A DNA stretch of 64,000 nucleotides, taken from the NCBI RefSeq assembly GCF_000716715.1, contig NZ_JNYJ01000022.1, forward strand, positions 124,001-188,000, given 5' to 3'. Within the stretch, counting starts at the first letter, position 1, and each line of letters opens with the position of its first letter. Made by a program: the position numbers and the translations under genes. Below, piece by piece: positions 40,991 to 59,045 of this stretch. The notes below the pieces were generated by a model. That model did not search any database. It worked only from the letters and a program-made list of their open reading frames with translations, and was not told the DNA's origin. The stretch is from Dactylosporangium aurantiacum (GTDB lineage: Bacteria > Actinomycetota > Actinomycetes > Mycobacteriales > Micromonosporaceae).

Positions 40991-41053
40991 CTACTTCTTC
41001 TTGCCCTTCTTGTCCTTCTTGTCCTTCTTGCCCTTCTTCGACTTCTTCGCCAT
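40991..41053 (-). CDS. Lysine-rich 20-residue microprotein
   Basis: ATG 41053 has a strong GGGGAGG six bases upstream, and a stem-loop terminator follows the stop. The product has 13 lysines in 20 residues, arranged as KK pairs every third position (MAKKSKKGKKDKK and so on, with Asp, Gly and Ser between). All lysine codons are AAG. A TTGACA sequence (41126-41121) upstream may be part of its promoter. It is divergent from a CYTH-CHAD gene of the polyphosphate-binding type, and lysine tracts bind polyphosphate. A polyphosphate- or nucleic-acid-binding role is inferred. It could also be a ribosome-associated peptide. Confidence 0.7.
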   Translation of the reverse strand: MAKKSKKGKKDKKDKKGKKK

Positions 41054-45329: not shown

Positions 45330-46673
45330 TCACCCGCCCGCAGTGAGCGCCGCGTCGACGGCGGCGGCCTCGATGCCGCGGGCGCACGCCTCGACCTGCG
45401 CCGGGGACAGCCGGTGCGTGTCGGCCCAGATCGCCAGTTCGACCGCCGGCTCGGGGCCGCCGACGGCGTCGACCTGCAGGTAGAAGGTGCCGTCGTAGGT
45501 CGGCAGGGTCCGGTCCCAGCGCAGCGTCGTGCGTGGCCGCGCCGCGCGGACCTGCTCGGCGGTGGGCGGCACCGCGGGCAGCGCGGCGGCCGCGCCGCGC
45601 CGGTCGTTGACGAAGCAGGAGATGTCGATCGGCACGCCACGCTCGGCGGCGAGCCGGTCGAGCATCGCCCGGTGGTCGGCCGGGTCGAAGTAGCCGTGCA
45701 GGTAGGCGGTCGTCGCGGCCCGCCAGACCCGTTTCGCGACGGTGTCGAGGTCCCCGTCCGGGTCGATGACGCAGATGCCGGGCTGGGTCAGATGGCACAC
45801 GGCGTCGGCGAAGCCGGGCCGGAAGCGGTTGCTGACCAGCACCTGCGCGACGCTCGGCCGGCGCCCGGTGACCCGGGCCAGGGCGACGCCGTAGGCCGCG
45901 AGCAGCACGTGCCCGGTCTCCACGGCGCCGCGGGCGGCGACGACCTGCAGGGCGAGGTGCAGCGCCGGGGAGCGGCAGACCAGCTCCCAGAAGCGTGGGG
46001 TGCGCGGGTCGTCGGAGACGCCGAACCGCTCGGCCGGCAGGTCCCGCAGCGTCGCCTGCCAGTGCCGCAGCGACTTCGCGCTGTGCCGGCGCTCGGCCGG
46101 CTGCGCCTGGCGGCGGGCCAGCTGCAGGGGCTGGACCGCGGCGGCCGGCGGGGCACCTGAGCCCAGCAGCGGCAGGTCCCGCACGATCGCCTCGATGCCG
46201 AACCCGTCGACGGCGAGGTGGGAGTACTGCACGACGAGGTGGCTGGGCGTGTCGCCGGTGGTGACCACGCCCCACCGGACCGGAAACTCCGCGGCGGGGT
46301 CGAACGGGGTGAGCTCGTACCGCCGGCGCAGCGTCTCGGCGTCGGCCTCGGCGTCGCCGGCGCGGGACGCGACGATCTCCAGGGTGACGGTGCCCGCGGT
46401 GGACACGGTCTGCCGGGGCGGGTCGGCGGTGAGGTCGAAGCGGGTGCGCAGCGCCTGGTGCCGGCCGACCAGTGCGCCCAGGGTCGCGGCGAGCTGGGTG
46501 ACGGTGGCGCCCGGCGCGAGCGCGACGGTGCCGCCGATGTTCATCGTCCGGCCGGTGCGCCGCATCGTCCGCCAGATCTCCGCCTGCCCCCACGTCAGCG
46601 GGCCCGTCGGGTCGCCGGTGCCGGTGTCGTCGCCGAGGAACGGCACGGCGAGGTGGGACGTGGCGACATGCAT
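45330..46673 (-). CDS. Stand-alone condensation-domain protein (C2)
   Basis: 447 residues. It opens with LTWGQAEIWRTMRRTGRTMNIGG and has the active motif YSHLAVDGFG, with His 152 and Asp 156 retained and the first His of HHxxxDG replaced by Ser. LVSNRFRPGFADAVCHLTQPG and a late NDRRGAAAALP match the other two proteins of this set. Its start follows C3 by 3 nt, so both are in one operon behind the AQLR peptide gene. Condensation folds transfer acyl groups from carrier-bound thioesters to amines or alcohols. The substrate here is unknown; the neighbouring ACPs and repeat peptides are candidates. Confidence 0.85.
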   Translation of the reverse strand: MHVATSHLAVPFLGDDTGTGDPTGPLTWGQAEIWRTMRRTGRTMNIGGTVALAPGATVTQLAATLGALVGRHQALRTRFDLTADPPRQTVSTAGTVTLEIVASRAGDAEADAETLRRRYELTPFDPAAEFPVRWGVVTTGDTPSHLVVQYSHLAVDGFGIEAIVRDLPLLGSGAPPAAAVQPLQLARRQAQPAERRHSAKSLRHWQATLRDLPAERFGVSDDPRTPRFWELVCRSPALHLALQVVAARGAVETGHVLLAAYGVALARVTGRRPSVAQVLVSNRFRPGFADAVCHLTQPGICVIDPDGDLDTVAKRVWRAATTAYLHGYFDPADHRAMLDRLAAERGVPIDISCFVNDRRGAAAALPAVPPTAEQVRAARPRTTLRWDRTLPTYDGTFYLQVDAVGGPEPAVELAIWADTHRLSPAQVEACARGIEAAAVDAALTAGG

Positions 46674-46676
46674 CGG

Positions 46677-48023
46677 CTACTCCTGGAGCGCGGCGGCGAC
46701 CACCAGTTCCTCGATCCCCCGCAGGATCGCCACCAGATCGTCCGGGGCGACCCACCGGGTGTCGACGCGCAGCGTGATGTCGACCGTGTCCGGCACCGGG
46801 TTGATCAGGAAGAAAACCGTGGCGCCGGGATCGTCGGAGCCACGTCCCCAGCGCAGCCGGCTCTTCGGCAGCGCCTCGGTGATGTCCTGCGGGCCGGCCT
46901 GCGGCAGCACCTCCGCCGAGGCCAGCGAACGGCGCCGGTCGTTGAAGTAGGACTGCAGGTCCAGGGTGGCGCCGCGCTCCTCGCCGACCCGGGCGATCAT
47001 GTCCCACAGGCCGCGGGGGTCGTAGTAGGCGTGCAGGCCGGCGGTCAGCTGGGTCTTCCAGACCCGCGCGATCAGCTCGTCGAAACTGACGTCCGCGGTG
47101 TCGACCACGCACAGGGCGCTCTGCGCCAGGCCGGCGACCGACTCCTTGAAGCCGGGCCGGAAGCGGTTGCTCACCAGCATCCGCACCACGGTGGTGGAGT
47201 AGCCCGAGACCCGGGCCAGCATGAGCACGTACGCGGCGAGCAGGATCGTGCTGCTGTGCGCCTTGGTCCGCTCGGCGATCACGCCGAGGGCGAGGTAGGC
47301 GGCGGGTGAGGTGTAGGTCGCCTCCCAGTACCGCGGCGACGGCGGGTCGGCCACCGGCGGGAAGCGGTCCGGCGCGATCTCGCGCAGCTGCTTCTCCCAG
47401 TGCCGCAGCGAGGCGTTGTGCTGCCGCTTCGCCGCGCCGGCGCGCTGCTGGCGGGCCAGGTCCGCGGGCTGGATGCCGGCGACCGGGGCGAGGTGCTCGC
47501 CGGTGGCCCGGTCCAGGTTGGCCATGTCGGCGATGAGCGCCTCGATGCCGTAGGCGTCGATGGCCATGTGGGAGTACAGCACGACGAACCACACCGGGGT
47601 CCCGTCGCGGCACACGACCGCCGCACGCACCGGCCAGTCCTCGGCGTTGTCGAACGGCGCCTCCTGCAGGGCGACGTCGAGGGCGTCGGCGACCTCGGCC
47701 GGGTCCTCCGTCCCGGCCTCGACGATCTCGATGAGCAGCTCGCCGGATTCGGACAGGACCTGCCGGGGCAGGCCGTCCTCGCCGAGCCGGTAGCGGGTCC
47801 GCAGCGACTGGTGCCGGCTCATCAGAAACGCGAGCTCCATGACGATCTGCTCGATCGTCTGGCCGTCGACCAGTGGCATCGTGCCGCCGGCCCAGTCGAC
47901 CCGGCCACCGCCGAGTTCCATGGATCTCCACGCGGCCCATTGGCCCCAGGTCAATTCCTCGACGCCCGATCCTTCACCCTTGAAGTGCACCGGGACGCGC
48001 TGCACCGTCGCAGTCTCCGCCAT
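46677..48023 (-). CDS. Stand-alone condensation-domain protein (C3)
   Basis: 448 residues from ATG 48023, with GAGAGG upstream. The motif is YSHMAIDAYG: His 152 and Asp 156 remain, the first His is Ser and the Gly after Asp is Ala. TWGQWAAWRSMELGGG, MLVSNRFRPGFKESVAGLAQSALCVVDT and the YFNDRRRSL segment are shared with C1 and C2, so the three are paralogues. It is the first enzyme gene after the repeat-peptide gene on the minus strand, separated from it by a perfect 14-bp stem-loop. A transferase acting with a carrier protein or peptide is inferred. The Ala may lower or alter activity. Confidence 0.85.
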   Translation of the reverse strand: MAETATVQRVPVHFKGEGSGVEELTWGQWAAWRSMELGGGRVDWAGGTMPLVDGQTIEQIVMELAFLMSRHQSLRTRYRLGEDGLPRQVLSESGELLIEIVEAGTEDPAEVADALDVALQEAPFDNAEDWPVRAAVVCRDGTPVWFVVLYSHMAIDAYGIEALIADMANLDRATGEHLAPVAGIQPADLARQQRAGAAKRQHNASLRHWEKQLREIAPDRFPPVADPPSPRYWEATYTSPAAYLALGVIAERTKAHSSTILLAAYVLMLARVSGYSTTVVRMLVSNRFRPGFKESVAGLAQSALCVVDTADVSFDELIARVWKTQLTAGLHAYYDPRGLWDMIARVGEERGATLDLQSYFNDRRRSLASAEVLPQAGPQDITEALPKSRLRWGRGSDDPGATVFFLINPVPDTVDITLRVDTRWVAPDDLVAILRGIEELVVAAALQE

Positions 48024-48081
48024 GACCTCTCGCCTCGTGATCGTCGGTGTACGCGCAGGCTTGAAGGGCCTGCGACCGGGT

Positions 48082-48123
48082 GGCGGCCGGCCGGCGACGC
48101 CTGCGCCGTGCCGGCCGGCCGCC
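48082..48123 (-). terminator. 14-bp stem-loop between peptide gene A and C3 (attenuator)
   Basis: Perfect inverted repeat 48082-48095 with 48110-48123 and a 14-nt loop, all G/C. It starts 10 nt after the peptide stop and ends about 60 nt before the C3 start. A partial terminator or 3' stabiliser here would make peptide mRNA more abundant than enzyme mRNA, as in many precursor-peptide operons. Confidence 0.7.
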
Positions 48124-48132
48124 GCGACAGAA

Positions 48133-48210
48133 CTAGAGCCGGGCGTTCCGGAGCTGAGCGTTGACACTCCGGAGCTGAGCGTTGCTACCACGCAGCTGAG
48201 CAGACTTCAT
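48133..48210 (-). CDS. Repeat peptide A (25 residues, three AQLR units)
   Basis: ATG 48210 follows a strong AAGGGAGGTG ribosome-binding site. The product is MK, then SAQLRGS, NAQLRSV, NAQLRNA and RL: three seven-residue units with Arg at 7, 14 and 21. The unit codons differ only at synonymous positions (CTG/CTC, CGT/CGG), which points to selection on the peptide. Net charge is about +5 with no acidic residue. It is followed by a GC stem-loop and two condensation-domain genes and faces a second repeat-peptide gene across a regulatory gap. I do not recognise it. It could be a precursor or carrier peptide, a signalling or antimicrobial peptide, or a translated leader. Confidence 0.75.
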   Translation of the reverse strand: MKSAQLRGSNAQLRSVNAQLRNARL

Positions 48211-48370
48211 TTCGCACCTCCCTTGCCTGGTGAGTGAATGTGCTCGAAAGGGACCACCTGCGTCTTGTCCGGATCCCGACCTGTTCGGACCCGGATGATC
48301 GCGCGGGCCCACCCTGCAAGCACTGCGCCGAAGCCTATCGGCTGTCTTCTACCTGACGAAAGAGGCGAAT

Positions 48371-48390
48371 ATTGATCTCATCCAATCAAT
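48371..48390. promoter_or_regulatory. Dyad operator candidate ATTGAT-N8-ATCAAT
   Basis: A six-base inverted repeat with an 8-bp spacer in the divergent control region, a size usual for TetR- or LysR-type sites. No regulator gene is visible in the window. Confidence 0.35.
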
Positions 48391-48408
48391 GCCCGAAGGT
48401 CCGAATTT

Positions 48409-48420
48409 TAACGATCGTTA
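48409..48420. promoter_or_regulatory. Perfect 12-bp palindrome TAACGATCGTTA
   Basis: An uninterrupted palindrome at the centre of the divergent control region, in an AT-rich patch that is very unlike the surrounding 74%-GC sequence. It is a good candidate site for a dimeric regulator acting on both peptide genes. Confidence 0.45.
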
Positions 48421-48492
48421 TGTCCGATTTCCGGGGATGCGCCGTAGAAATGCGAATGGCATTGAAAAATTCCTAAGTCGTTAGGTGCGCGG

Positions 48493-48521
48493 TTGACACG
48501 ATCCACACGCGGGGTGATGCT
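48493..48521 (+). promoter_or_regulatory. Promoter of repeat-peptide gene B
   Basis: A consensus TTGACA (48493-48498), a 17-nt spacer and GATGCT (48516-48521). The expected transcript would have a leader of about 134 nt before the ATG at 48662, with inverted repeats GGTCAT/ATGACC (48528-48557) and CATATCG/CGATATG (48616-48646). Confidence 0.55.
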
Positions 48522-48615
48522 TCTGGCGGTCATAGACTTCGGTCGTTCAGAATGACCACAGCGGGCCGGAGCGCATTCGTCGTGAAGGCGACGGATGCGA
48601 TGCGGCCCGCCATTC

Positions 48616-48646
48616 CATATCGCACTGTGATGTGCCAAACGATATG
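48616..48646 (+). promoter_or_regulatory. Leader hairpin abutting the Shine-Dalgarno of peptide gene B
   Basis: CATATCG (48616-48622) and CGATATG (48640-48646) can pair around a 17-nt loop. The second arm ends exactly where AGGAGGTGAAA begins, so folding could expose or stabilise the ribosome-binding site. Confidence 0.45.
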
Positions 48647-48661
48647 AGGAGGTGAAACTTC

Positions 48662-48745
48662 ATGCGCGTTGTCTCCAGCCGCGTCGTGTCCAGCCGCGTC
48701 GTCTCCAGCCGGGTCGTGTCCAGCCGGGTCGTGTCCAGCCGTTGA
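48662..48745 (+). CDS. Repeat peptide B, M-(RVVSS)5-R (27 residues)
   Basis: ATG 48662 is preceded by an ideal GAGGAGGTG. After Met the product is five perfect RVVSS units and a final Arg. The DNA units differ (CGC/CGG/CGT, GTT/GTC, GTC/GTG) but every difference is synonymous, strong evidence that the peptide is what is conserved. Net charge is about +6. Two or three strong stem-loops follow, then a condensation-domain gene (C4), mirroring peptide A. Arg every fifth residue would let a trypsin-like protease release VVSSR units, and Ser side chains offer acylation or dehydration sites. No known RiPP family with this repeat is recognised. A leader-peptide role remains possible. Confidence 0.8.
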   Translation: MRVVSSRVVSSRVVSSRVVSSRVVSSR

Positions 48746-48789
48746 TTTCGGCCGCACCGCCTGAAGCACGCACCACCGAATGAGTAGGG

Positions 48790-48860
48790 CAGCCCGTGTC
48801 CGCACGGGCGGGGCGGCACCCGACGGGCATGGGTGCCGCCCGCTTGCCGGACGGGCTGCC
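48790..48860 (+). terminator. Nested stem-loops between peptide gene B and C4 (attenuator)
   Basis: A perfect 11-bp stem (48812-48822 with 48832-48842, 9-nt loop) lies inside an outer 9-bp pairing (48790-48798 with 48852-48860). A competing 7-bp hairpin at 48793-48810 is possible. As on the other arm, this should reduce read-through from the peptide gene into the enzyme gene. Confidence 0.65.
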
Positions 48861-48920
48861 GTACTCCCCCATGAGCCGCACCGAAGACCACCGCACCGAG
48901 CAGCACCCTGGAGGCGCACC

Positions 48921-50177
48921 TTGTCCGGCGACGAGACGTATCCGGCCACCGTCGGACAGCTGTCCGTCTGGCGCGACATCGAACGGTTCCCACCCGACCG
49001 GCTGTGGGAGGCCAACCTCTCCTTCGTCTGGGACCTCCCCGAGGGCACCTGGAGCGAGGAGCAGGTCTGGTCCGCGCTCGGCGCCGTCGCCGTGCGGCAC
49101 GCCTCGATGCGCACCACGTACGTCGTCGACGACGAGGGCTTCCCCCGCCAGCGGATCGCCGCGCACACCGCCGAGGAGGTCCTCGCCCAGGTCAGGCAGG
49201 GCACCGCGGACGTCGCCGACCGCGAGGCGAAGGACGCCGAGGAGATCCGCCGCGGCATCGACGCGCTCCGCGAGCTGCCCTGGCGGGCCTGGATCCTGCT
49301 CGACGCGGGCGTGCCCCGGCAGGTCCTCGTCGTGGTCAACCACATGGCCGCCGACGGCGTCGCGTCCGTCGTGCTCCGCGAGGACTTCGAGACCATCCTC
49401 GGCGGCACGGACCTGCCGCCCGCCCCCGGCCCGCTCGAGCTGGCCCTCAACCAGCAGGGCGAGGGCAGCGCCCGGCTGCGCAACGCCGAGCGCTACTGGC
49501 GGCGCACCATGGCCGCCGCGCCGCACCGCCCGGAGACCGGCGAGCTCACGCCGCTCGGCGCCGTGCTGCAGACCGGCATCCCGATGCCGCTGGCGCACGA
49601 GGCGATGGCCAAGCACGACGTCACCCTGGCCAGCCTGATCCTCGCCGCCTACTATCGCGGCATCCAGGCCGCCACCGGCGAGCGCGAGGTGCTGCTGTTC
49701 CCGATGTCGGCCAACCGGTTCGACGAGCAGCACGCCCGGGTCGTCACCAGCCTCAACCAGTGGGCACCGCTGCTGCTGGACCTGGAGGAGGACGAGCCGT
49801 TCGCGGCGATCCTGCCCAAGGTGCACTGGAAGGCGTTCAACGCGCTGAAGAACGGCGTGTGCTCGCCGGACGCGATCTGGCAGATCCGCGACGAGCACGC
49901 CCGCCTCGACCCGCCCGTGGACCGCGGCTTCTACTACAACCCGATGCTCGCGCCGCCCGGCTTCCCGTCGCAGGACCAGCTGCGCCCGCCGAAGATCGAC
50001 TGGTTCGAGCACGGCCGCACCACCGGCCCCGGCTTCTACCTGATCGTGCGCGGCCTGACCTCGCTCAACCTGATGTTCCGGGTCAACCGGGCCGGCTTCG
50101 ACCGCGACTCGCTGACCACCATGCTGACCACCATGCAGGCCTGCCTCGCCGAGACGCTCGGCGGCGAGCGGCTCTGA
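48921..50177 (+). CDS. Stand-alone condensation-domain / acyltransferase-like protein (C4)
   Basis: 418 residues from TTG 48921, chosen because GGAGG lies 7 nt upstream and no other start has one. VGQLSVWRDIERFPPDRLWEANLSFVWDLP opens a condensation fold; the motif VNHMAADGVAS keeps His 141 and Asp 145 with Asn in place of the first His. It is more distant from C1-C3 than they are from each other (MSANRFDEQHARVVTSLNQW instead of VSNRFRPG). It is the only enzyme gene behind peptide gene B on the plus strand and ends at a perfect terminator, so the peptide/C4 pair is one transcription unit. Confidence 0.85.
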   Translation: MSGDETYPATVGQLSVWRDIERFPPDRLWEANLSFVWDLPEGTWSEEQVWSALGAVAVRHASMRTTYVVDDEGFPRQRIAAHTAEEVLAQVRQGTADVADREAKDAEEIRRGIDALRELPWRAWILLDAGVPRQVLVVVNHMAADGVASVVLREDFETILGGTDLPPAPGPLELALNQQGEGSARLRNAERYWRRTMAAAPHRPETGELTPLGAVLQTGIPMPLAHEAMAKHDVTLASLILAAYYRGIQAATGEREVLLFPMSANRFDEQHARVVTSLNQWAPLLLDLEEDEPFAAILPKVHWKAFNALKNGVCSPDAIWQIRDEHARLDPPVDRGFYYNPMLAPPGFPSQDQLRPPKIDWFEHGRTTGPGFYLIVRGLTSLNLMFRVNRAGFDRDSLTTMLTTMQACLAETLGGERL

Positions 50178-50239: not shown

Positions 50240-51193
50240 TCAGTCGCGCAGGGAACGGCCGGTCTTGGTGAGGAAGACGTCGTCGAGCGTCGGGCGGTGC
50301 AGCTCGATCGTCTCCAGCTTGATCCCCGCGCCCTCCAGCACCCGCATGATCTGCGGGATGGCCGAGTCGCCGGCATCGACGTTGAGCCGCAGCTCATTGT
50401 CCTCGCGGACCTCGACGCCGTTGGCGAACTCCTCCTTGCCCAGCAGCTCACCGGCGCGTTCGGCGTCCTCGGCGACGACGACCGTGACCACGTCGCCGGA
50501 GATCTCGCGCTTGAGGTCGGCCGGGGTACCCTCCGCGACGATCTCGCCGTGGTCGATGATCGCGATGCGGTCGCAGAGGGCGTCGGCCTCGTCGAGGTAG
50601 TGCGTGGTGATGAAGACGGTCATGCCCTCGGCGCGCAGCCGGCGGATCTCGTCCCACATGTGCGCGCGGCTCTGCGGGTCCAGGCCCGACGTCGGCTCGT
50701 CCAGGAACAGCACCTGCGGCTGGTGGATGACGCCCATCGCGATGTCGACGCGGCGGCGCTGGCCACCGGAGTACGTCTTGCACTTGCGGTCGGCGTACTC
50801 GGTCAGGTCGAACGCGGCGAGGGCCGCCTCCGCGCGCTGCTCCGCCTCGGCCTTGCTGATGCCGTACATGCGCGCCTGCAGCACGATCTCCTCGCGGCCG
50901 GTCACGTCGTCGGTGGTGCCGCCGCCCTGCGCCACGAAGCCGATCGCCCGGCGCACCGCCTCGGGCTCGGTACGCAGGTTCGCCCCGGCGATCGTCGCCT
51001 CGCCGTCGTCGACGGAGAGCAGGGTGGCGAGCATCCGCAGCGTGGTGGTCTTGCCCGCGCCGTTCGGGCCGAGGAACCCGAAGATCTCGCCCTGCGCGAC
51101 GTCCAGGTCGATGCCCTTGACCGCCTCGACGCTGGTCGCCTTCTTGCCGCGGCCCGACTTGTAGATCTTCTTCAGTCCCTTGATCTTGATCAT
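50240..51193 (-). CDS. ABC transporter ATP-binding protein, DrrA type
   Basis: 317 residues. Walker A GPNGAGKTTT, the Q-loop AQGGG, signature YSGGQRRR, Walker B VLFLDEPTSG and switch His in FITTHYLDEAD are intact. The C-terminal about 90 residues (LGKEEFANGVEVREDNELRLNV, then TIELHRPTLDDVFL) are the DUF4162-like extension of daunorubicin-resistance ATPases. It pairs with the permease gene upstream in the operon and probably exports the cluster product and confers self-resistance. Confidence 0.93.
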   Translation of the reverse strand: MIKIKGLKKIYKSGRGKKATSVEAVKGIDLDVAQGEIFGFLGPNGAGKTTTLRMLATLLSVDDGEATIAGANLRTEPEAVRRAIGFVAQGGGTTDDVTGREEIVLQARMYGISKAEAEQRAEAALAAFDLTEYADRKCKTYSGGQRRRVDIAMGVIHQPQVLFLDEPTSGLDPQSRAHMWDEIRRLRAEGMTVFITTHYLDEADALCDRIAIIDHGEIVAEGTPADLKREISGDVVTVVVAEDAERAGELLGKEEFANGVEVREDNELRLNVDAGDSAIPQIMRVLEGAGIKLETIELHRPTLDDVFLTKTGRSLRD

Positions 51194-51205
51194 GATCCTG
51201 CTCCC

Positions 51206-51970
51206 TTACCGGACCGAACGCGAGAATGTGCGGGCCGACCAGATCACGGCGACCACCATGAGACCGGCGGCGATGACGATGCTCTGCCAGATGGCCGGGT
51301 CGCTGGTGTTGCCGATGAACAGCGCCCGCAGCCCCTTGGCGGCCCAGTTGAAGGGGTTGAAGTCGGCCACGGTACGCAGCCACAGCGGCGCGAGCGCGAG
51401 CGGCAGCAGCGTGCCGGACAGCAGCATCAGCGGCTGGGCGATGTTGTTGACGACCTGGCCGAGGACACTGGGGTTGGCGACCCGGATCGCGATGCCGTAG
51501 GAGATCGACGCCGAGGACAGCGCGCACAGCGCCAGGATCGCGTAGCCGAGCAGCAGGCTGCCGATGTTGACGAACACGCCGAACGGCAGCGACAGGATCG
51601 TGATGATGATCGACTGCACGACGACGGTGACGACGTCGCGCAGCGAGCGGCCCAGCAGCAGCGCGACCCGGCTGACCGTGGTCACCCGGGACCGTTCGAT
51701 GACCCCGTTGGCGAGGTCGCCGAGCAGGCCGAAGCCGACGTAGAGACCACCGGCGAGCGCCAGGGCGACGAGCATGCCGGGCACGTAGATCTTGTACGCG
51801 TCGCTCATCGAGTCCGCGCCGACCGAGGCGAGCGCCGGCTTGAGTAGCGGCGCGAAGAGGATCAGGTAGACCGCCGGCTGGGCCACGCCGAGGACGACCC
51901 ACAGCGGCGACCGCAGCATCAGCAGCATGTGCCGCTGGAAGATCAACCAGGTGTCACGCAGGAGTTTCAC
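51206..51970 (-). CDS. ABC-2 type permease, DrrB type
   Basis: 254 residues, six hydrophobic segments, beginning MKLLRDTWLIFQRHMLLMLRSPLWVVLGVAQPAVYLILF as in DrrB-type permeases. ALCALSSASISYGIAIRVANPSVLGQVVNNIAQPLMLLSGTLLPL is the conserved ABC-2 region. Its start overlaps the end of the glycosyltransferase gene by 17 nt. Together with the ATPase it forms the exporter. Confidence 0.9.
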   Translation of the reverse strand: MKLLRDTWLIFQRHMLLMLRSPLWVVLGVAQPAVYLILFAPLLKPALASVGADSMSDAYKIYVPGMLVALALAGGLYVGFGLLGDLANGVIERSRVTTVSRVALLLGRSLRDVVTVVVQSIIITILSLPFGVFVNIGSLLLGYAILALCALSSASISYGIAIRVANPSVLGQVVNNIAQPLMLLSGTLLPLALAPLWLRTVADFNPFNWAAKGLRALFIGNTSDPAIWQSIVIAAGLMVVAVIWSARTFSRSVR

Positions 51971-53165
51971 GCGCTTGCTCGCTTTCAGACGTCGTACGTT
52001 GCGATGGGGTGCCGGCGGATGCCAGCTGGATCAGTGCCGTCGCGGCGGCATCGGCGCCGCCGCCCGCGAGCAGTCGCTTGCCGGTCGCGCGCGCCGCCTC
52101 GGCGTAGCGGGGGTCGTCGAGCAGGTCGAGCAGCGCGGCCCGCAGCGCGGCGGGCCGGCTGTGGTCGATCGAGACCCGCAGCCCGGCGCCGGCCCGCGCC
52201 ACCGCCGAGGCCATCAGCGCCTGGTCACCCTTGATCGGGGCGACGAGCAGCGGCACGCCGTGCACCAGGGACTCGTTGACGGTGTTGGCGCCGCCGTGGC
52301 TGACCACCGCGTCCAGGTGCGGCAGCAGGTCCAGCACCGGCACCGGCCGGCGGACCAGCACGTGCCCCGGCTCGCCGGTGATCGTGCCCTGCGGCGCGAC
52401 GACGACCGCCTGCAGCTGCTCGCCGAGCGGCGCGATCGCCTCGAGCATCCGCGGGTAGAAGTGCGCGGCCTGGTCCATGTTGAGCGTGCCCATGGTCACC
52501 AGGACGTGCCTGCGCGCCGGGTCGAGCCAGTCGAACGGGAAGTCCGGGTCCGGCGCCCGCTCCGCGAGGGACGGGCCGACCACCAGGGTGTTCGCCGGCA
52601 GCTGCGACGGGTCGTCCAGCAGGTCCTCGCCGAGGAAGCTGATCAGCAGGTGCGGGGAGAAGCGCAGGTCCCACGGCGGCTCACCGTCGTGCCCGGCGGC
52701 GCTCCACGCGGTGCGCATCCGCTGCTGGATCCACGCCTCGACCTTCGGCAGCCCGCGGGCGAACGGCCTGGTCAGCTCCATCGCGCTGGACGCGACGGTG
52801 ACCCACGGCAGGCCGAAGCGGTGCGCCACGATCGGGCCGGCGATGGCGTGCTGGTCGACGACGAGCAGGTCCGGCCGGAACGCCTCGACGGCCGCCTCGA
52901 CGCCTTTGCGGGTGTGCTTCGTGTGCGGCAGGATGTAGCCCTCCCACCGCGAGCGGGTGGCGTCCAGGCCCCGTTCCGCCTGGCCACGGTGGGCGCGCAG
53001 CGGGATCGGGTGGATCACCGCGTCGGGTCCGGCCAGGGGGCGCAGGAAGGACTCCGACCCCGCCCACAGCACCTCGTGCCCGCGCGCCAGCAGCACCTTC
53101 GCCACCGCGACCATCGGGTTCACGTGCCCGGTCAGCGGCAGCGACAGGAACAGAAACCTGCTCAT
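51954..53165 (-). CDS. GT1-family glycosyltransferase (macrolide/antibiotic type)
   Basis: 403 residues from ATG 53165 (MSRFLFLSLPLTGHVNPMVAVAKVLLARGHEV), a GT-B fold. The donor-site signature is VVSHGGANTVNESLVHGVPLLVAPIKGDQ. DQHAIAGPIVAHRFGLPWVTVASSA lies in the acceptor half. Enzymes of this group add sugars from NDP-sugars to antibiotics and polyketides. No deoxysugar genes are visible, so a common donor such as UDP-glucose is likely. A repeated element with a small ORF is inserted between it and the ACP gene upstream. Confidence 0.92.
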   Translation of the reverse strand: MSRFLFLSLPLTGHVNPMVAVAKVLLARGHEVLWAGSESFLRPLAGPDAVIHPIPLRAHRGQAERGLDATRSRWEGYILPHTKHTRKGVEAAVEAFRPDLLVVDQHAIAGPIVAHRFGLPWVTVASSAMELTRPFARGLPKVEAWIQQRMRTAWSAAGHDGEPPWDLRFSPHLLISFLGEDLLDDPSQLPANTLVVGPSLAERAPDPDFPFDWLDPARRHVLVTMGTLNMDQAAHFYPRMLEAIAPLGEQLQAVVVAPQGTITGEPGHVLVRRPVPVLDLLPHLDAVVSHGGANTVNESLVHGVPLLVAPIKGDQALMASAVARAGAGLRVSIDHSRPAALRAALLDLLDDPRYAEAARATGKRLLAGGGADAAATALIQLASAGTPSQRTTSESEQARETPA

Positions 53166-53287
53166 GCCGGCACCTCCGCTGCGCTCCGGCGCCGGCCTGA
53201 GCCCCACCCTGAGCCCATGATTCGCAGCCCTCCGCTGCGCTCCGGGCCGCTCATGCCGGCACCTCCGCTGCGCTGCGGCCTGCTCAT
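53162..53287 (-). repeat. Repeat element copy 1 with a 41-codon ORF between ACP and glycosyltransferase
   Basis: The gap between the ACP stop and the glycosyltransferase start is filled by a sequence nearly identical, in gene-sense orientation, to 58357-58449. It carries an uninterrupted ORF whose ATG overlaps the ACP stop and whose TGA overlaps the next ATG (both GCATGAGC). It provides GGAGGTG as ribosome-binding site. An extra 33-bp partial unit at the ACP side lengthens the ORF to 41 codons (ending GSGRRRSAAEVPA). Copy differences change amino acids, so this is probably a DNA element rather than a selected protein. Confidence 0.7.
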
Positions 53288-53547
53288 GCACCGCCCCCGG
53301 CCAGCTCCGCCAGGTCGGCGACGGTGAGCTCGATCAGCTCCGGCAGGTCCAGCCCGGCGATGTGCGCGGCGAGGTCGACCCCGTACAGCTCCCGCATCCT
53401 GGTGCTCAGGGCGACGACCTCGAGACTGTCGATGAACAGGTCGGTGTCCACCCGGGTCGACGGCGTCACGCCGGCCGCCCAGGTCTCGTCCTCGCCGGTG
53501 ACCTGGCGCAGCAGCTCCACGATCTCCTGGTGCGGCGCCGCGGCCAC
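53284..53547 (-). CDS. Acyl carrier protein
   Basis: 87 residues. The phosphopantetheine site is DLFIDSLEVVALSTRM (Ser about 41). Acidic helix II and the overall length are typical of dedicated PKS/FAS ACPs. It starts 5 nt after the methyltransferase stop. Being on the arm with the glycosyltransferase and methyltransferase, it may carry the chain during tailoring, or serve as donor for a condensation-domain protein. Confidence 0.88.
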   Translation of the reverse strand: MAAAPHQEIVELLRQVTGEDETWAAGVTPSTRVDTDLFIDSLEVVALSTRMRELYGVDLAAHIAGLDLPELIELTVADLAELAGGGA

Positions 53548-53552
53548 GACGA

Positions 53553-54461
53553 TCAGTCCCCTGCCGCCGGCTTCGTGGCGCGCACGGCCCCGTAGGTCAC
53601 CGCGCCGGTCTCGAAGCCCTTGAGCATCAGCGGCCCGGCGTAGAAGAAGCCGAGCACGTCCACACCCCGGTCGCGGGCCAGGTCACGCATCATCGACCGG
53701 CCGTTGTCCAGCTCCTTGACCTGGGCGAACCCGGGCTCCCAGGAGTTGGCGACGTTGGCGCTCCAGTCGACGATCGCGATGTCGGTGAACCCGGCCGCGG
53801 CGGCGAGCCGCTCGTGCTCCTCCAGCGAGGAGAAGCTGGGCATCACCTGATGGCGCAGGATCTGGTCGACCACCCGGGACTCCTGCGCGGTGAGCTCTCC
53901 GTCGCGGACCGACCAGGTGGCGATCGCGACGATGCCGCCCGGCTTCAGCACCCGCCGCACCTCGGCGAAGAACGCCGCCCGGTCCGCGATGTGCATGAGA
54001 CTTTCAACGGCCCAGACCACGTCGAAGGACGCGTCCGGGTAGTCGTTGGCCATGAAGTCGCACTGGCGGAACCTGGTGCGTTCGGCGAGGCCCAGCTCAG
54101 CGGCCTTCTCGTTGGCACGGGCGGCCTGCGCGGCGCTGAGGGTGACACCCTCGACGGTGCAGCCGAGCGGCCCGGCCAGGTACATCGCCGGCCCGCCGAT
54201 ACCGCAGCCCACGTCCAGGACCCGGGCGCCGGCCGGCAGACCGGCGAAGGCGACCAGCTCACGCACGAGACGGTCGGTCGCGGCGTGCCGGTCCTCGTCG
54301 TTGCCGGGGCGCTCACCGGCGTCCCAGAAGCCGTGGTGCACGTGCTGGCCCCACAGGTCCTCGTAGAGGTCCAGGGTGGTGTCGTAATACCGCTCGACGG
54401 CGGCGTTCAGTCCGGGCCCGGCCGGTGCGGACGGGTATGCGGAACTGGCATTTGCTTTCAC
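53553..54461 (-). CDS. SAM-dependent C-methyltransferase-like enzyme
   Basis: 302 residues from GTG 54461, with GGAGA upstream. The SAM motif I is VLDVGCGIGGPAMYLA, followed by VEGVTLSAAQAARANEKA, DFMANDYPDASFDVVWAVESLMHI and LKPGGIVAIATW. The sequence style is that of gamma-tocopherol/sterol and geranyl-diphosphate C-methyltransferases and RebM-like enzymes. A cluster tailoring role is likely; C- versus O-methylation cannot be decided. It is the first gene of the minus-strand arm. Confidence 0.9.
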   Translation of the reverse strand: MKANASSAYPSAPAGPGLNAAVERYYDTTLDLYEDLWGQHVHHGFWDAGERPGNDEDRHAATDRLVRELVAFAGLPAGARVLDVGCGIGGPAMYLAGPLGCTVEGVTLSAAQAARANEKAAELGLAERTRFRQCDFMANDYPDASFDVVWAVESLMHIADRAAFFAEVRRVLKPGGIVAIATWSVRDGELTAQESRVVDQILRHQVMPSFSSLEEHERLAAAAGFTDIAIVDWSANVANSWEPGFAQVKELDNGRSMMRDLARDRGVDVLGFFYAGPLMLKGFETGAVTYGAVRATKPAAGD

Positions 54462-54992: not shown

Positions 54993-55147
54993 TTTCCTGC
55001 GCATTGTGTCCGGGCGTGATTCGCGCCGGTGGCCGCAGGCCGCCCGACGTTCGCCAGTGTGTTCATTCGGGGGTTGCACACGCTGCTCGCCGGCCAACGA
55101 GGGCCGTCGATCAGCGGAGCAGCCGCGCGCGTAGGAAGGGGTTCCGG

Positions 55148-56674
55148 GTGACCGACGTCGCACTCGAGACCCAGCCGATCCCGGCGATCGACCCGTCGTG
55201 GGTCGACGAGGTGCTGCTGTCCGGCCCCGCCGACCAGGTCGCCCTGGTCTTCGAGGCCCCCGTCACCCGTGCCGAGCTGCGCCGGATGATCGCCGCCAAA
55301 CAGTCCGTGCTCGCCGCCGCGGGTCTCGGCCCCGGCGGGTCGGTCGCCCTGTGCCTCGCCCCGTCGCTCGCGTTCGTGACCAACCTGCTCGCCGCCTGGC
55401 GCCTCGGTGCCCGCGCGGCCCTGCTGGACCACCGCCTCACCGCCTTCGAGGTGGACAACGCCCTGCAGCGGCTGGCGCCGCAGGTCGTGGTCTCCGCCAA
55501 GCACGTGACCGGCGGGCCGCTGCGCGGCTTCGTCGAGATCGAGGAGCGCGTCGCCACCTACCCCGGACGGCCCGCCGACACCGCGCACGCGCTCATCCAG
55601 CTCAGCTCCGGCTCGACCGGCCCGTCGAAGGTCATCGCCCGCACCGCGGCGAACCTCGTCGAGGAGATCGAGCGGTACGTGAAGATCGGCGCCGGTGTGC
55701 CGCAGGCCGGCGAGCGGATCGTCTCGCTCGCGTCCATGGTGCACGTGCTCGGTCTGGTCGGCGGCCTGCTCTACGGCCTGCACGCCGGCGCTCAGCTCGT
55801 GGTGCCGGCGCGGATGACCGCCGACGGCATCCTGTCCACGGTCGCCGCCGGACCCGAGCCGACCACGCTGCTCGGCGTCCCCTTCCACATCGAGCTGCTC
55901 TCCTCCGTGCAGGCTCCGCCCAGCCTGCCCCAGCTGACCGGCATGACCACCGGCGGCGAGCTCGTCCGCGCCGAGGTCTACAGCGGTTTCGTCGACCGGT
56001 ACGGCATCCGGCTCGGCAACATGTACGGGATGACCGAGGTCGGGGTCATCGCCACCGACCTGTTCGGCGAACACCGCCCTTCTCTCACCCCCGCACCCGG
56101 CCTCACCGTCCGCGAGGAAGCCGGCGAGCTGCTCGTGTCGCTGCCCGCGTCGCCGTACCTCGGCCTCGTCGACCCGGCCCGCTGGGCCGACGGCTGGCTG
56201 CACACCAAGGACGCCGGCAGCGTCGATGAGGCCACCGGCCGCGTGCGCATCCACGGCCGGCGTGACTCGCAGGTCTCCGTCGGCGGCCTGAAGGTCGACC
56301 TGACCGAGGTCGAGCACACGCTCGCCGCGCTGCCCGGCGTCGCCGGCGCCGTCGTGACCTTCGACAAGGCCATCGAGGCGTACGTGATGCTGCGCGACGG
56401 CCACACCGCGGCACAGCTCCAGGACCGCCTCGCCGAACGGCTCGCCGGGTTCAAGCGGCCGCGCGTGCTGAAGGTCGTGGAGCAGCTGCCGCGCACCGCC
56501 ACCGGCAAGCTCGTCCGGGACCGCGCCGCGCTGCTCGCCGCCGCGCCGGCGCCCGCGACCCCGGCGGCGCCCCAGGTGGCGATCCCGGCGCAGCGGGCGG
56601 GGCAAGACGTGACCGATGGCGCGACCGACCCGGTCGCGCCGGCACCCGTGAAGGAAGGGAACCACTCGCGATGA
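55148..56674 (+). CDS. Acyl/aryl-AMP ligase (ANL superfamily)
   Basis: 508 residues from GTG 55148, with AGGAAGGGG upstream. The core motifs are the P-loop IQLSSGSTGPSKV, GNMYGMTEVG, the hinge HGRRDSQVSVGGLKVDLTEVE and the catalytic Lys in TATGKLVR. The sequence is shorter in the N-terminal region than acyl-CoA synthetases and resembles ligases that load ACPs. A 40-residue Ala/Pro/Thr tail follows. It overlaps the ACP gene by ATGA, so it most likely activates the starter acid and loads that ACP. Confidence 0.9.
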   Translation: MTDVALETQPIPAIDPSWVDEVLLSGPADQVALVFEAPVTRAELRRMIAAKQSVLAAAGLGPGGSVALCLAPSLAFVTNLLAAWRLGARAALLDHRLTAFEVDNALQRLAPQVVVSAKHVTGGPLRGFVEIEERVATYPGRPADTAHALIQLSSGSTGPSKVIARTAANLVEEIERYVKIGAGVPQAGERIVSLASMVHVLGLVGGLLYGLHAGAQLVVPARMTADGILSTVAAGPEPTTLLGVPFHIELLSSVQAPPSLPQLTGMTTGGELVRAEVYSGFVDRYGIRLGNMYGMTEVGVIATDLFGEHRPSLTPAPGLTVREEAGELLVSLPASPYLGLVDPARWADGWLHTKDAGSVDEATGRVRIHGRRDSQVSVGGLKVDLTEVEHTLAALPGVAGAVVTFDKAIEAYVMLRDGHTAAQLQDRLAERLAGFKRPRVLKVVEQLPRTATGKLVRDRAALLAAAPAPATPAAPQVAIPAQRAGQDVTDGATDPVAPAPVKEGNHSR

Positions 56675-56949
56675 ACGACACGACGAATCAGGAAATTCGC
56701 CAGTTCCTGCTGGACTCGTTGACCGAGATGAACTACAGCGTCGAGGACGTCGACGACGACACCGCGCTCGGCCCGGCCGGCGCCGACCTCGAGTCGCTGT
56801 CGCTCGCCGAGCTGGCGGTGCGCGTCGAGGACCGCTTCGGTGTCCGCTTCGACGACGACGAGGCGGAGAAGCTGGCCGGGATGACCGTCGGCGAGTTCAT
56901 CGCCGCGGTCGCCGAGCGCCGCTCCGCCGCGGCCACGGCGGGCAGCTGA
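56671..56949 (+). CDS. Acyl carrier protein
   Basis: 92 residues. The phosphopantetheine Ser lies in ADLESLSLAELAVRVEDRFGV, where the usual DSL is ESL. The long acidic helix with DDDEAEKLAGMTVGEFIAAVAERR is typical of ACPs of aryl-polyene-like and fatty-acid-like pathways. It overlaps the ligase gene and is probably its loading partner. Confidence 0.9.
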   Translation: MNDTTNQEIRQFLLDSLTEMNYSVEDVDDDTALGPAGADLESLSLAELAVRVEDRFGVRFDDDEAEKLAGMTVGEFIAAVAERRSAAATAGS

Positions 56950-56951
56950 AC

Positions 56952-57191
56952 GTGGCCACTGCACCAACCCGCGACGACGTCCTGGCCATGCTCGCCACGT
57001 ACGGCGACCGCACGCCGGCTGACGTCGCCGAGGGGATCGACTCGCTGGAGCTCGCGTGGCTCGTCCACCAGCTCGAACAGCACTACGGCGTGCCGCTCGA
57101 CCTCGACGACGAAGCCCTCGCCCGGATGTCGACGGTGAGCGGGACGCTCGAGGTCCTTCAGGAACTGAAGGTCGAGACGGGTTCACGATGA
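56952..57191 (+). CDS. Second, short acyl carrier protein
   Basis: 79 residues from GTG 56952, two bases after the previous stop. GIDSLELAWLVHQLEQHYGVPLDLDDEALARM carries the Ser. It is shorter than usual (about 80) at both ends but helices II and III look complete. It overlaps the KS gene by ATGA. Two tandem ACPs may carry the starter and extender separately. Confidence 0.85.
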   Translation: MATAPTRDDVLAMLATYGDRTPADVAEGIDSLELAWLVHQLEQHYGVPLDLDDEALARMSTVSGTLEVLQELKVETGSR

Positions 57192-58360
57192 CCACCACCA
57201 TGGCCGTTCGGCGCGGTCCGGGTGACGTGGTGCTGACCGGTGCGGCCGTGCTCAGCGCGTTCGGCCGGGGCATGACCGCCCTGGCCGACGGCCTGGACGC
57301 GGGCGCGCCGGCGTTCCGGCCGGTGGACCGCTTCGACGTGACGGCACGGCGGGTCGGGGTGGCCGCGGCCGTGCCCGGCTCCCCCGCCCTCACCGACGAG
57401 CTCGTCCGCGTGGTCGACGAGGCCTGCGACGAGGCCAAGCTCAGCGCCGCCGAACGGTCCGGCGCACCGCTGTTCCTGGCCCTGCACGGTGACCCGGCGC
57501 TGGCCCGGGTCGCCGAGGCCGACCGCCGCCGGCACAGCAGCACGGCGTTCACCGCCGCGCTCGCCGCCACCACCGGGCTCGCCACGGACCTGCCGCTGGG
57601 AGCGGGAATCCGGGCATACACCTCGGCGTGCGTCGCGGCGAGCACCGCGGTCGCCGACGCCGCCGCGGCGATCGCCCGCGGCGAGCTCGACCGCGTGGTC
57701 GTGGCCGGTGGGTACCTCGTGGACGCTGATCAGTTCTCCCTCTTCGACGCGGGCCGTGCACTGTCCACTGACGGACAGGTCCGCCCGTTCAGCGAAGGGC
57801 GGCGCGGGCTGCTCCTCGGCGACGGGGTCGGCGCGGTCGTCGTGGAGTCCGCCGCCGCGGCCCGGGACCGGGGTGTCCCGGCGCTCGCCCGGCTGGCCGG
57901 CTGGGGCCGCGCCGGCGACGCGTACCACCCGTGCCAACCACACCCGGAGGGCGCCGGGCTGGCCCGGGCGGTCACCGCCGCGCTGCGGCGGGCCGGGATC
58001 GGGCCAGAGGCGCTCGGGTACGTCAACGCACACGGCTCGGGCACCGCGCAGAGCGACGTCGCGGAGGCCGCGGCGCTGCGGATCGCGCTCGGCGAGCACG
58101 CCGCGACGGTGCCGGTGTCGTCGACGAAGTCGCTGCACGGCCAGGCCCTGGAGGCCTCCGGCGTCCTGGAGCTGATCGTCACCCTGCACGCGCTGCGCAC
58201 CGGCCGGCTGCCGGTCAACGCCGGGTTCCTCGCCGCGGACGAGCACTGCCCGCTGCACCTGGTGCTGGACGGCTTCACCGCCGCCACGCCGTCATACGCA
58301 CTGACGTTGAACGCCGCGTTCGGCGGGGCCAACACCGCGCTGCTGGTGGGATCAGCATGA
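57188..58360 (+). CDS. Beta-ketoacyl synthase (KS1)
   Basis: 390 residues, thiolase fold. Cys about 148 is in AYTSACVAAST, the first His in NAHGSGTAQSD and the second in STKSLHGQALEASG, so the C-H-H triad is complete. Sequence style is that of KSs in aryl-polyene and type II polyketide gene sets. It extends ACP-bound chains by decarboxylative condensation. The stop overlaps the first ATG of the repeat element (GCATGAGC). Confidence 0.9.
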   Translation: MTTTMAVRRGPGDVVLTGAAVLSAFGRGMTALADGLDAGAPAFRPVDRFDVTARRVGVAAAVPGSPALTDELVRVVDEACDEAKLSAAERSGAPLFLALHGDPALARVAEADRRRHSSTAFTAALAATTGLATDLPLGAGIRAYTSACVAASTAVADAAAAIARGELDRVVVAGGYLVDADQFSLFDAGRALSTDGQVRPFSEGRRGLLLGDGVGAVVVESAAAARDRGVPALARLAGWGRAGDAYHPCQPHPEGAGLARAVTAALRRAGIGPEALGYVNAHGSGTAQSDVAEAAALRIALGEHAATVPVSSTKSLHGQALEASGVLELIVTLHALRTGRLPVNAGFLAADEHCPLHLVLDGFTAATPSYALTLNAAFGGANTALLVGSA

Positions 58361-58449
58361 GCGGCCCGCAGCGCAGCGAGGAGCCACGAATCATGGGCTC
58401 AGGGTGGAGCTCAGGCCGGCGCCGGAGCGCAGCGCAGGTGCCGGCATGA
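58357..58449 (+). repeat. Repeat element copy 2 with a 30-codon ORF between KS1 and the KS-like gene
   Basis: A near-copy (about 8 differences in 95 bp, no indels) of 53162-53255 in the same sense relative to the genes. Its ORF starts in the KS1 stop overlap and ends in the ATGA of the next gene, so GCATGAGC occurs at both edges. The ribosome-binding stretch reads GCAGGTG in place of GGAGGTG. The duplicated junction suggests insertion into a former ATGA overlap. Confidence 0.7.
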
Positions 58450-59045
58450 GCGGATTACTGCTGGAACCGAATGAGCCACAGGGGCTCGGCACCGCGGAGC
58501 TGTTCGTCGAGGAGATCCCGCCGCTGACCGCGCTCGCCACGCGGGCCGGCCTGGCGGTCCTCGCCGCCGCGGACTGGCCGGAGCCGGGCGACGAGGAGCT
58601 GCCGAAGCTCGCCGGGTTCGTGCACTCGTCGTTCAACCCTCTCGTCGCGGCCACCGCCGGGCGCTGCCTCCAGCGCCGTGCGGAGAGCGCTCCACCGGCG
58701 GTCACCGCGATCGTGCTCGTCACCGCCCTCGGCGACGTGGCCAGCGCGGCGCACGTCGCCGGGGCCGTCGACACCGGCGGCCGGGTCGGGCCGCTGTTCT
58801 TCTTCCAGTCGGTGCCGAACGCCGTCGCCGGGCACGTCGCGGCCAGATGGCAGCTCACCGGGCCGGTCGTGTGCGTGGACAGCACCGACGCCGGGCTCAG
58901 CGTGGCCCGGCTCCTGCTCGCCGACGGCGACGCCGGCGAGGTCCTCCTCGTCCTGCTCGAACAGGCCACCGTGCCGGAGGCCGTCACCGGAACCAGCCAC
59001 GACACCGCCGCCGCCGTGCTCGTGACCGAAAGAGGGGCATCATGA
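58446..59045 (+). CDS. Truncated beta-ketoacyl synthase-like protein
   Basis: 199 residues from ATG 58446. It matches the N-terminal beta-ketoacyl-synthase-like domain found in aryl-polyene clusters: LAGFVHSSFNPLVAATAGRCL, then VGPLFFFQSVPNAVAGHVAARWQLTGPVVCVDSTDAGLSVARLLLADGDAGEVLLVLLE. The usual Cys is absent at the nucleophile position (VDSTDAG) and no His residues of the C-terminal half exist. It is probably a structural or chain-length partner of one of the two full KSs rather than a catalyst. Confidence 0.8.
   Translation: MSGLLLEPNEPQGLGTAELFVEEIPPLTALATRAGLAVLAAADWPEPGDEELPKLAGFVHSSFNPLVAATAGRCLQRRAESAPPAVTAIVLVTALGDVASAAHVAGAVDTGGRVGPLFFFQSVPNAVAGHVAARWQLTGPVVCVDSTDAGLSVARLLLADGDAGEVLLVLLEQATVPEAVTGTSHDTAAAVLVTERGAS

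Follow-up and report, generated by a model that had tools for sequence, protein, structure and literature searches.

Two units of tiny ORF, hairpin and condensation gene

In a 64-kb stretch of the Dactylosporangium aurantiacum genome (hereafter the window; part of contig C22 of a genome of 11.4 Mb), two genes for stand-alone condensation (C) enzymes of the kind found in nonribosomal peptide synthetases (NRPSs) are each preceded by a tiny open reading frame (ORF) with a strong Shine-Dalgarno (SD) sequence and by a GC hairpin. Three such enzymes are encoded at this place. C4 (48921-50177, + strand; 418 aa, TTG start) carries the motif NHMAADG and matches PF00668 with an E value of 4.9e-11, C2 (46677-48023, - strand; 448 aa) carries SHMAIDA (E 4.5e-23), and C3 (45330-46673, - strand; 447 aa) carries SHLAVDG (E 9.5e-22). 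Their PF00668 scores of 42.4, 82.1 and 77.7 bits, respectively, are all above the curated cut-off of 30.6 bits, and the AlphaFold model of C4 (pLDDT 92) matches NRPS C domains. The condensation fold that the original prediction assigned to C2, C3 and C4 was borne out, whereas the xHxxxDG motif that it named fails in C2: by motif reading, HxxxDG is present in C3, C4 and two further condensation proteins of the region, C1 and C5, with conservation in the C4 family, and C2 has HMAIDA.

On the C4 side, a predicted promoter read from the sequence (48493-48521, + strand), in which TTGACA and GATGCT are 17 nt apart, lies ahead of the SD sequence AGGAGGTGA (48647-48655, + strand), a 9-nt match to the anti-SD complement with a pairing energy of -17.4 kcal/mol. 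Next come the predicted ORF M(RVVSS)5R (48662-48745, + strand) and, between this ORF and C4, a GC hairpin of 30 pairs (48788-48860, + strand) with an energy of -57.3 kcal/mol, which was reached by none of 50 shuffles. Repeat ORFs occur at the same place in loci L040-L044 and a short one in L049, and a TTGACA...ATGCT-like arrangement was seen by eye 5' of the peptide in L040, L041, L042, L044 and L049. On the C2 side, the SD sequence AAGGGAGGTG (48215-48224, - strand) is followed by the predicted ORF MKSAQLRGSNAQLRSVNAQLRNARL (48133-48210, - strand) and a GC hairpin of 18 pairs (48082-48123, - strand; -40.4 kcal/mol, reached by 1 of 50 shuffles), after which come C2 and C3; C3 has no peptide ORF of its own. 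Both sides thus have the order SD, peptide ORF, hairpin, condensation gene of the mirror-image units that had been predicted; they are not copies of each other, however, because their peptide types and C clades differ.

In M(RVVSS)5R, 96% of the residues lie in repeated 4-mers. The window holds 1165 ORFs that run from start to stop over 15-70 codons, nested starts included; in a ranking by repetitiveness, M(RVVSS)5R is surpassed only by a fragment of itself that begins at an internal start, and the C2-side ORF is eighth. Furthermore, when intergenic ATG ORFs of 4-60 codons were sought across the window with an SD pairing energy of -13 kcal/mol or lower, the RVVSS ORF alone was returned; the C2-side ORF fell short of this cut, its pairing being -15.6 kcal/mol with an SD slice one base longer. 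A search of a database of 5.8 billion proteins with one repeat peptide gave no candidate sharing three 5-residue words. At the DNA level, the repeat ORF matched a single place in its own genome, the known one, and in other genomes of the genus its matches fell at known peptides, plus a weak one in G104:C24 (E 7e-4). The window holds no Rfam family at the gathering cut-off and no tRNA or tmRNA.

Two further features of the window were noted. An inverted repeat, CATATCG...CGATATG (48616-48646), lies immediately 5' of the SD of the RVVSS peptide; by eye it recurs in D. siamense and, almost unchanged, in D. fulvum, and it could fold beside the SD and control translation of the peptide. Another short, repetitive, SD-preceded ORF, the lysine-rich MAKKSKKGKKDKKDKKGKKK (40991-41053, - strand), has no adjoining condensation gene.

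The unit is conserved with two clades of condensation enzymes

A search with C4 in 354 genomes of the family Micromonosporaceae gave matches in 31 at an E value of 1e-30 or better, and loci were obtained for 30 (as the gene starts of relatives come from alignments, distances may be off by a few codons). A tiny ORF precedes the condensation gene in 24 of these 30 C4-type loci. All seven family genomes with a C4 identity of at least 49%, which belong to two genera and include D. aurantiacum itself, carry a repeat ORF 5' of C4, with the repeats (RVVSS)n, (RAISG)n or (RVVSG)n, or with RAVSS, RGIKS and RAIKS units in Catelliglobosispora. The C4-side peptide of D. vinaceum is short (MPSIISRKIISRVISN), and the Micromonospora relatives of C4 (33-43% identity) are preceded by even shorter ORFs, again behind strong SDs: MKNNSAG or MKGNSAG in four loci, MVKNDCAG in three, and in eight the tandem ORFs MR(S/N)V..RG(V/I)SWT and then MRKxDCxx (e.g. 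MRKDDCAG). Two more distant C4-type loci have MRSAGHRSLVVCT and MTRKPTLRNVC.

For C2, a tiny ORF was found in 10 of the 14 Micromonosporaceae loci at an identity of at least 48%; 13 of these loci, a lower bound because four candidates were scored per genome, had an E value of 1e-110 or better, and L092 (49%) was added as a negative. The four loci without it are L185, L187, L188 and L092, and no tiny ORF precedes the C2-like genes of L091 (47%) and L093 (46%) either. Within Dactylosporangium, a strong-SD tiny ORF stands before all eight C2 genes at an identity of at least 54% and before none of three at 41-43%. The relatives of the C2-side peptide are MKAAQLRGSNAQLRNARL, MKNAALRNAALRNARL, MKGAALRGARL, MKDAVSLRSASQLKLARLARRAEAQL, MKAVRSL, MKSVRSL, MVVREL and MPKAVRSL, and all ten C2-side peptides end in Leu. 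Together, the tiny ORFs of C4-type and C2-type loci span 6 to 48 codons, and their products extend from RxxS(G/S) repeats to MKNNSAG, MRKDDCAG, MKAVRSL and MVVREL. A pair formed by MKAVRSL or MPKAVRSL and a C2-like gene is an orphan, syntenic in two species, namely on contig C40 of D. aurantiacum and in D. siamense, and a C2-like gene of D. vinaceum that lies ~138 kb from C4, beside a two-component system, still has its own tiny ORF. As a side observation, four genomes (G359, G357, G354 and G356) hold 17-26 C2-like condensation matches each, some within NRPSs, and mostly no tiny ORF was seen among the stretches examined upstream of these genes.

A hairpin was present in all 27 spacers folded (for long spacers, the first 260 nt were searched), with stems of 12-30 pairs and energies of -25.6 to -57.3 kcal/mol; when 20 spacers were shuffled 50 times each, the real hairpin of the spacer concerned was reached in 38 of the 1000 cases. 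A T-run right behind the stem was seen in a few spacers only, e.g. L049 and L025. In L042 and L043, the spacer before C4 holds several successive GC stem-loops (minimum free energy -146 and -202 kcal/mol, z -8.5 and -6.3), a series that exceeds those of the other species folded.

The ORF is largely specific to these genes. With an SD match of at least 7 nt required, it was found in 23 of 35 C4-type loci (the 30 above and five Catenulispora-type loci) vs 4 of 69 loci of other stand-alone C genes, and these four are C2 of this same cluster. This tally, made by hand from the tabulated loci, omits L040-L044 and L049-L051, which duplicate L053-L063, as well as matches below 80 bits and any gene at most 750 nt from a locus edge. 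When SD pairing of -14 kcal/mol or better was used instead, seven of the 69 non-C4 loci had such an ORF, every one of them C2-type; a looser filter gave 23 of 35 C4-type loci vs 15 of 69 others (Fisher P 2.6e-5). Since the layout recurs in 24 of 30 C4-type and 10 of 14 C2-type loci, it is more than a product of chance, and the unit of peptide ORF, hairpin and condensation-enzyme gene is real and conserved in relatives. A repeat peptide had been predicted in each unit: what holds is a conserved tiny ORF, with selection at the amino-acid level where it repeats. Repetition is not its defining feature, because the ORFs of the Micromonospora and orphan relatives, 6-13 codons long, are free of repeats.

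Selection was examined in the six repeat ORFs with at least five regular units, irregular first units and L049 being left out. Against the column consensus, the codons of the repeat units show 55 synonymous and 9 nonsynonymous changes, seven of the latter in Catelliglobosispora. The binomial P values, 2.5e-18 for an expected synonymous share of 0.33 and 1.8e-9 for a share of 0.5, are indicative only, as units of one gene share ancestry. The number of units varies from 2 to about 9. The synonymous excess suggests that the amino acids of the C4-side repeat units are under selection, as they appear to be from these codon counts. Two Micromonospora ORFs, which lack such an excess, have nucleotide identities of 92% and 83%, vs 70% in the DNA that separates them and 64% in the DNA that follows.

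Carrier proteins and the neighbourhood of the units

The acyl carrier proteins (ACPs), ligase and ketosynthases that had been read next to the units were confirmed with Pfam. ACP1 and ACP2 (56671-57191, + strand; PF00550, E 7.6e-6 and 1.8e-4) and ACP3 (53284-53547, - strand; FIDSLEV, E 1.4e-4) are free carrier proteins, an AMP-binding ligase of the same cluster lies at 55004-56674 (+ strand; PF00501, E 4.9e-33), and ketosynthase-like genes (PF00109/PF02801; FabF-like) follow on the + strand at 57194-58360, 58404-59045 (a weak match) and 59048-60292. On the - strand, an ABC transporter (50240-51970), a glycosyltransferase, ACP3 and a methyltransferase occupy 50240-54461 and are syntenic in relatives; the ABC transporters right of C4 form a pair, and a PhyH-domain protein and a DUF3050 protein are also encoded right of C4 on the + strand. 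Beyond the window lie genes for E1-type dehydrogenase subunits, a ligase and C5, the fifth condensation protein. The block is syntenic in other Dactylosporangium, rearranged in Catelliglobosispora and partly kept in Catenulispora, and a relative of C1 (34744-36369) adjoins C4 in three Catenulispora-type loci (L045, L046 and L052). No enzyme or recognition domain of a known class of ribosomally synthesized and post-translationally modified peptides (RiPPs) was found among 38 proteins of the cluster region scanned with Pfam; near the M. lupini relative there is a radical-SAM/SPASM protein. The ligase beyond the window, an AMP ligase just to its right on contig C22 (L022:3212-4837) that is conserved in the cluster, has as its best NCBIfam match AvaA6, a 3-aminoavenalumate diazotase, at 457.5 bits, under the cut-off of 975; the pathway may involve nitrite chemistry, but a different role of this ligase is also conceivable.

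The unit occurs in a type II polyketide synthase (PKS)-like cluster, at a radical-SAM locus, in operons with a carrier protein and a cytochrome P450, and as the orphan pair. Free carrier proteins stand beside it in three of these settings: the window, the M. lupini locus and three Micromonospora operons. The M. lupini locus (L051) comprises MKNNSAG, a C4-type protein, an ACP, a radical-SAM/SPASM protein and two proteins without a Pfam match over the cut-off. The Micromonospora operons (L132-L134) encode two tiny ORFs (one in L132), a C4-type protein, a second C-like protein, a free peptidyl carrier protein (PCP) and a P450; L132 and L133 have in addition an AMP ligase and L133 a class V aminotransferase, and a phage-type integrase adjoins the operon in L132.

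The peptides as candidate acceptors of carrier-bound groups

From these sequence features, we tentatively favour the reading that the tiny peptides are ribosome-made acceptor partners for carrier-bound acyl or aminoacyl groups, which the condensation enzymes would join to them. A role as acceptor is the simplest use, because the enzymes resemble acyl- and aminoacyl-transferring C proteins and carrier proteins are nearby. The promoter 5' of the peptide would give abundant peptide mRNA, and a hairpin passing only part of transcription would yield peptide in excess of enzyme, an arrangement familiar from operons for ribosomal peptides. Each of the two enzymes, C4 and C2, would use the peptide of its own unit, to which a group, acyl or aminoacyl, would move from a free carrier protein. 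The candidate nucleophile is the N-terminal amine, present in every peptide; in the C4-side peptides, a Ser or Cys that recurs in the motifs R-x-(V/I)-(S/C) and (N/D)(S/C)A, noted by eye and with no control, may serve instead, a position that is Lys in two Catelliglobosispora units. In the repeat peptides, every unit would be one acceptor site. A fuller scheme is possible but less assured, namely that each C2- or C4-type enzyme is served by its own leaderless micro-peptide of 6-48 residues, in some species with tandem acceptor units, which would receive polyketide- or amino-acid-derived groups from free carrier proteins to give a class of ribosomal-nonribosomal hybrid products that escape gene callers.

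Alternative readings: leader peptide, non-substrate partner or chance

A doubtful but serious alternative is that the ORF encodes a cis-acting leader peptide, whose translation, perhaps stalled by a metabolite or by shortage of an aminoacyl-tRNA, gates transcription past the hairpin, the peptide being otherwise useless. The attenuators of erm, cat and amino-acid operons consist of a short ORF with a strong SD and a hairpin, followed by the gene, and the units described here have this classical order, many of them with ORFs of only 6-13 codons. The unit is also present where the C gene seems to be first in its transcript and absent where it follows another gene, as C3 does in the window and C4 after C2 in Catenulispora. 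The uniform terminal Leu of the known C2-side peptides is what a stop-codon arrest peptide might show, the orphan pairs lack an adjoining pathway, and the SD region of the C gene is partly paired in predicted folds (unpaired probability 0.19-0.67).

In other respects the units differ from such attenuators. Expected pairing between ORF and spacer amounted to 1.3-35 pairs in 18 cases and was highest in the C4-side repeat ORFs, but shuffled ORFs paired just as strongly: the real value was reached in 206 of 360 shuffles, and 16 of the 18 cases were unremarkable. This control therefore does not support a shared antitermination fold, although stalling mechanisms without such a fold may still operate. 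The distance from stop codon to stem varies from 2 to 145 nt (median 18), the stem ends 22-453 nt 5' of the C start, and in all 27 cases the strongest stem is free of the C-gene SD, which fits neither masking of the SD by the hairpin nor a fixed attenuator geometry. Furthermore, the repeats have expanded to differing unit numbers with their amino acids retained through synonymous changes, the C4-side peptides have no common C-terminus, and no such ORF was found in the window 5' of the methyltransferase/ligase pair, C1, the FAD oxidase gene or the PhyH gene. Selection on expanding units, strong SDs and a free hairpin geometry together fit a peptide made in quantity for use in trans.

It is unlikely, though worth weighing, that such a trans-acting peptide is not a substrate at all but, as a small partner, inhibitor, carrier or signal, binds to the condensation enzyme or reports on it and stays paired with it for that reason. 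Consistent with this, the peptide is the recurring partner across the PKS-like cluster, the radical-SAM locus, the PCP-P450 operons and the orphan pair, and on the C2 side it has no conserved side-chain nucleophile; however, neither a binding nor a signalling component was identified, the number of repeats varies, and peptide types diverge strongly between C4 clades. Finally, it is highly improbable that short ORFs precede these genes fortuitously or by an artefact of annotation, for although GC-rich DNA often has short ORFs and the looser filter picks them up before other C genes, strong-SD ORFs are nearly confined to two C clades among the loci examined, and the sequence conservation of orthologous peptides speaks strongly against chance.

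Several observations weigh against peptides that accept carrier-bound groups. C2 has HxxxDA instead of HxxxDG as its active-site motif; the C2-side peptides share no side-chain nucleophile, MVVREL offering its N-terminus alone; and neither a protease nor a leader region nor a recognition domain was identified. The neighbours of the orphan pair are a chemoreceptor, an unknown protein, a LacI regulator and a GH31 glycosidase, with no biosynthetic genes, and none of the carrier-protein matches listed for the D. aurantiacum genome lies on the orphan-pair contig. The distribution of the peptide has gaps: six of the 30 family C4-type loci (L075-L077 and L080-L082) are without a strong-SD tiny ORF, and of 29 class-wide loci outside the C4 clade proper (L138-L166, of which L164 belongs to the family), none has an ORF whose SD pairing reaches -14 kcal/mol. 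C2 and C4 are retained in five Catenulispora-type loci, C4 following C2 in the same direction, but no such peptide is present in the locus sequence examined, so that it may be dispensable for the shared core; three of the five sit on contigs or loci of <10 kb, and a tiny-ORF scan of the remaining Catenulispora-type sequence gave one unrelated candidate (L045/L130) and none in L046, L131, L047, L048 and L052. Synonymous changes are not in excess in the two Micromonospora ORFs compared (ratios of 1:4 and 4:11). As to the RNA, GC-rich spacer DNA of this kind forms hairpins easily, 180 of the 1000 shuffled spacers holding some hairpin of at least 12 pairs at -25 kcal/mol or better; the weakest real hairpins, those of L104 and L078, were reached by 13 and 9 of 50 shuffles, respectively; and in two Catelliglobosispora ORFs, the exceptions in the pairing control, the real ORF-spacer pairing was reached by only 1 and 2 of 20 shuffles.

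Comparison with known systems

Goadvionin and lipolanthine are made by condensing a polyketide acyl chain with a ribosomal peptide by means of a dedicated acyltransferase (Kozakai et al. 2020, cited in PMC10435860). The units of D. aurantiacum would resemble goadvionin in the combination of an acyl group with a ribosomal peptide; they differ in having a condensation protein of the NRPS type as the candidate enzyme and in that no lanthipeptide enzyme was found among the 38 proteins of the cluster region scanned with Pfam. The goadvionin acyltransferase is reportedly of the GNAT type, and its peptide is said to be an avionin-type lanthipeptide with a leader. The precursor of pheganomycin, another hybrid product, reportedly contains repeated cores. 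In pheganomycin biosynthesis, PGM1 links a nonribosomal building block to a ribosomal core peptide (PMC8939145 and PMC13417212). PGM1 is an ATP-grasp ligase, and none of the same 38 proteins gave an ATP-grasp match in Pfam. The 18-bp precursor genes of biarylitides adjoin their modifying enzyme and are missed by gene callers (PMC13417212). As depicted there, biarylitides are similar in their tiny precursors, and a P450 is also found in three Micromonospora relatives here; their modifier, however, is a P450 cross-linker, whereas the constant partner here is a condensation enzyme.

Among the openly licensed papers listed by literature searches, no precedent was recognised for a condensation domain acting on a ribosomal peptide, which is weak evidence of absence. 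To our knowledge, none of the goadvionin, pheganomycin and biarylitide pathways uses a condensation-domain protein. C domains such as SgcC5 that stand alone or release chains (PDB 4znm and 6cgo) have the fold and the HxxxD motif of the enzymes described here and use a carrier-bound donor, as these enzymes would. Their known acceptors are small molecules or carrier-bound groups, and we know of no peptide gene paired with such a domain.

We propose that the unit be regarded as a novel form of ribosomal-peptide pathway, subject to proof of modification. If the peptides are indeed substrates, condensation enzymes would become modifiers of ribosomal peptides, and NRPS/PKS and RiPP biosynthesis would meet in a two-gene unit overlooked by gene callers. 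Should they prove to be leaders or partners, the conserved unit of peptide, hairpin and enzyme, being linked to two condensation clades, is still a concrete and testable object, and further units may be sought by a simple rule: a strong SD, an ORF of 6-50 codons, a hairpin and a stand-alone C enzyme.

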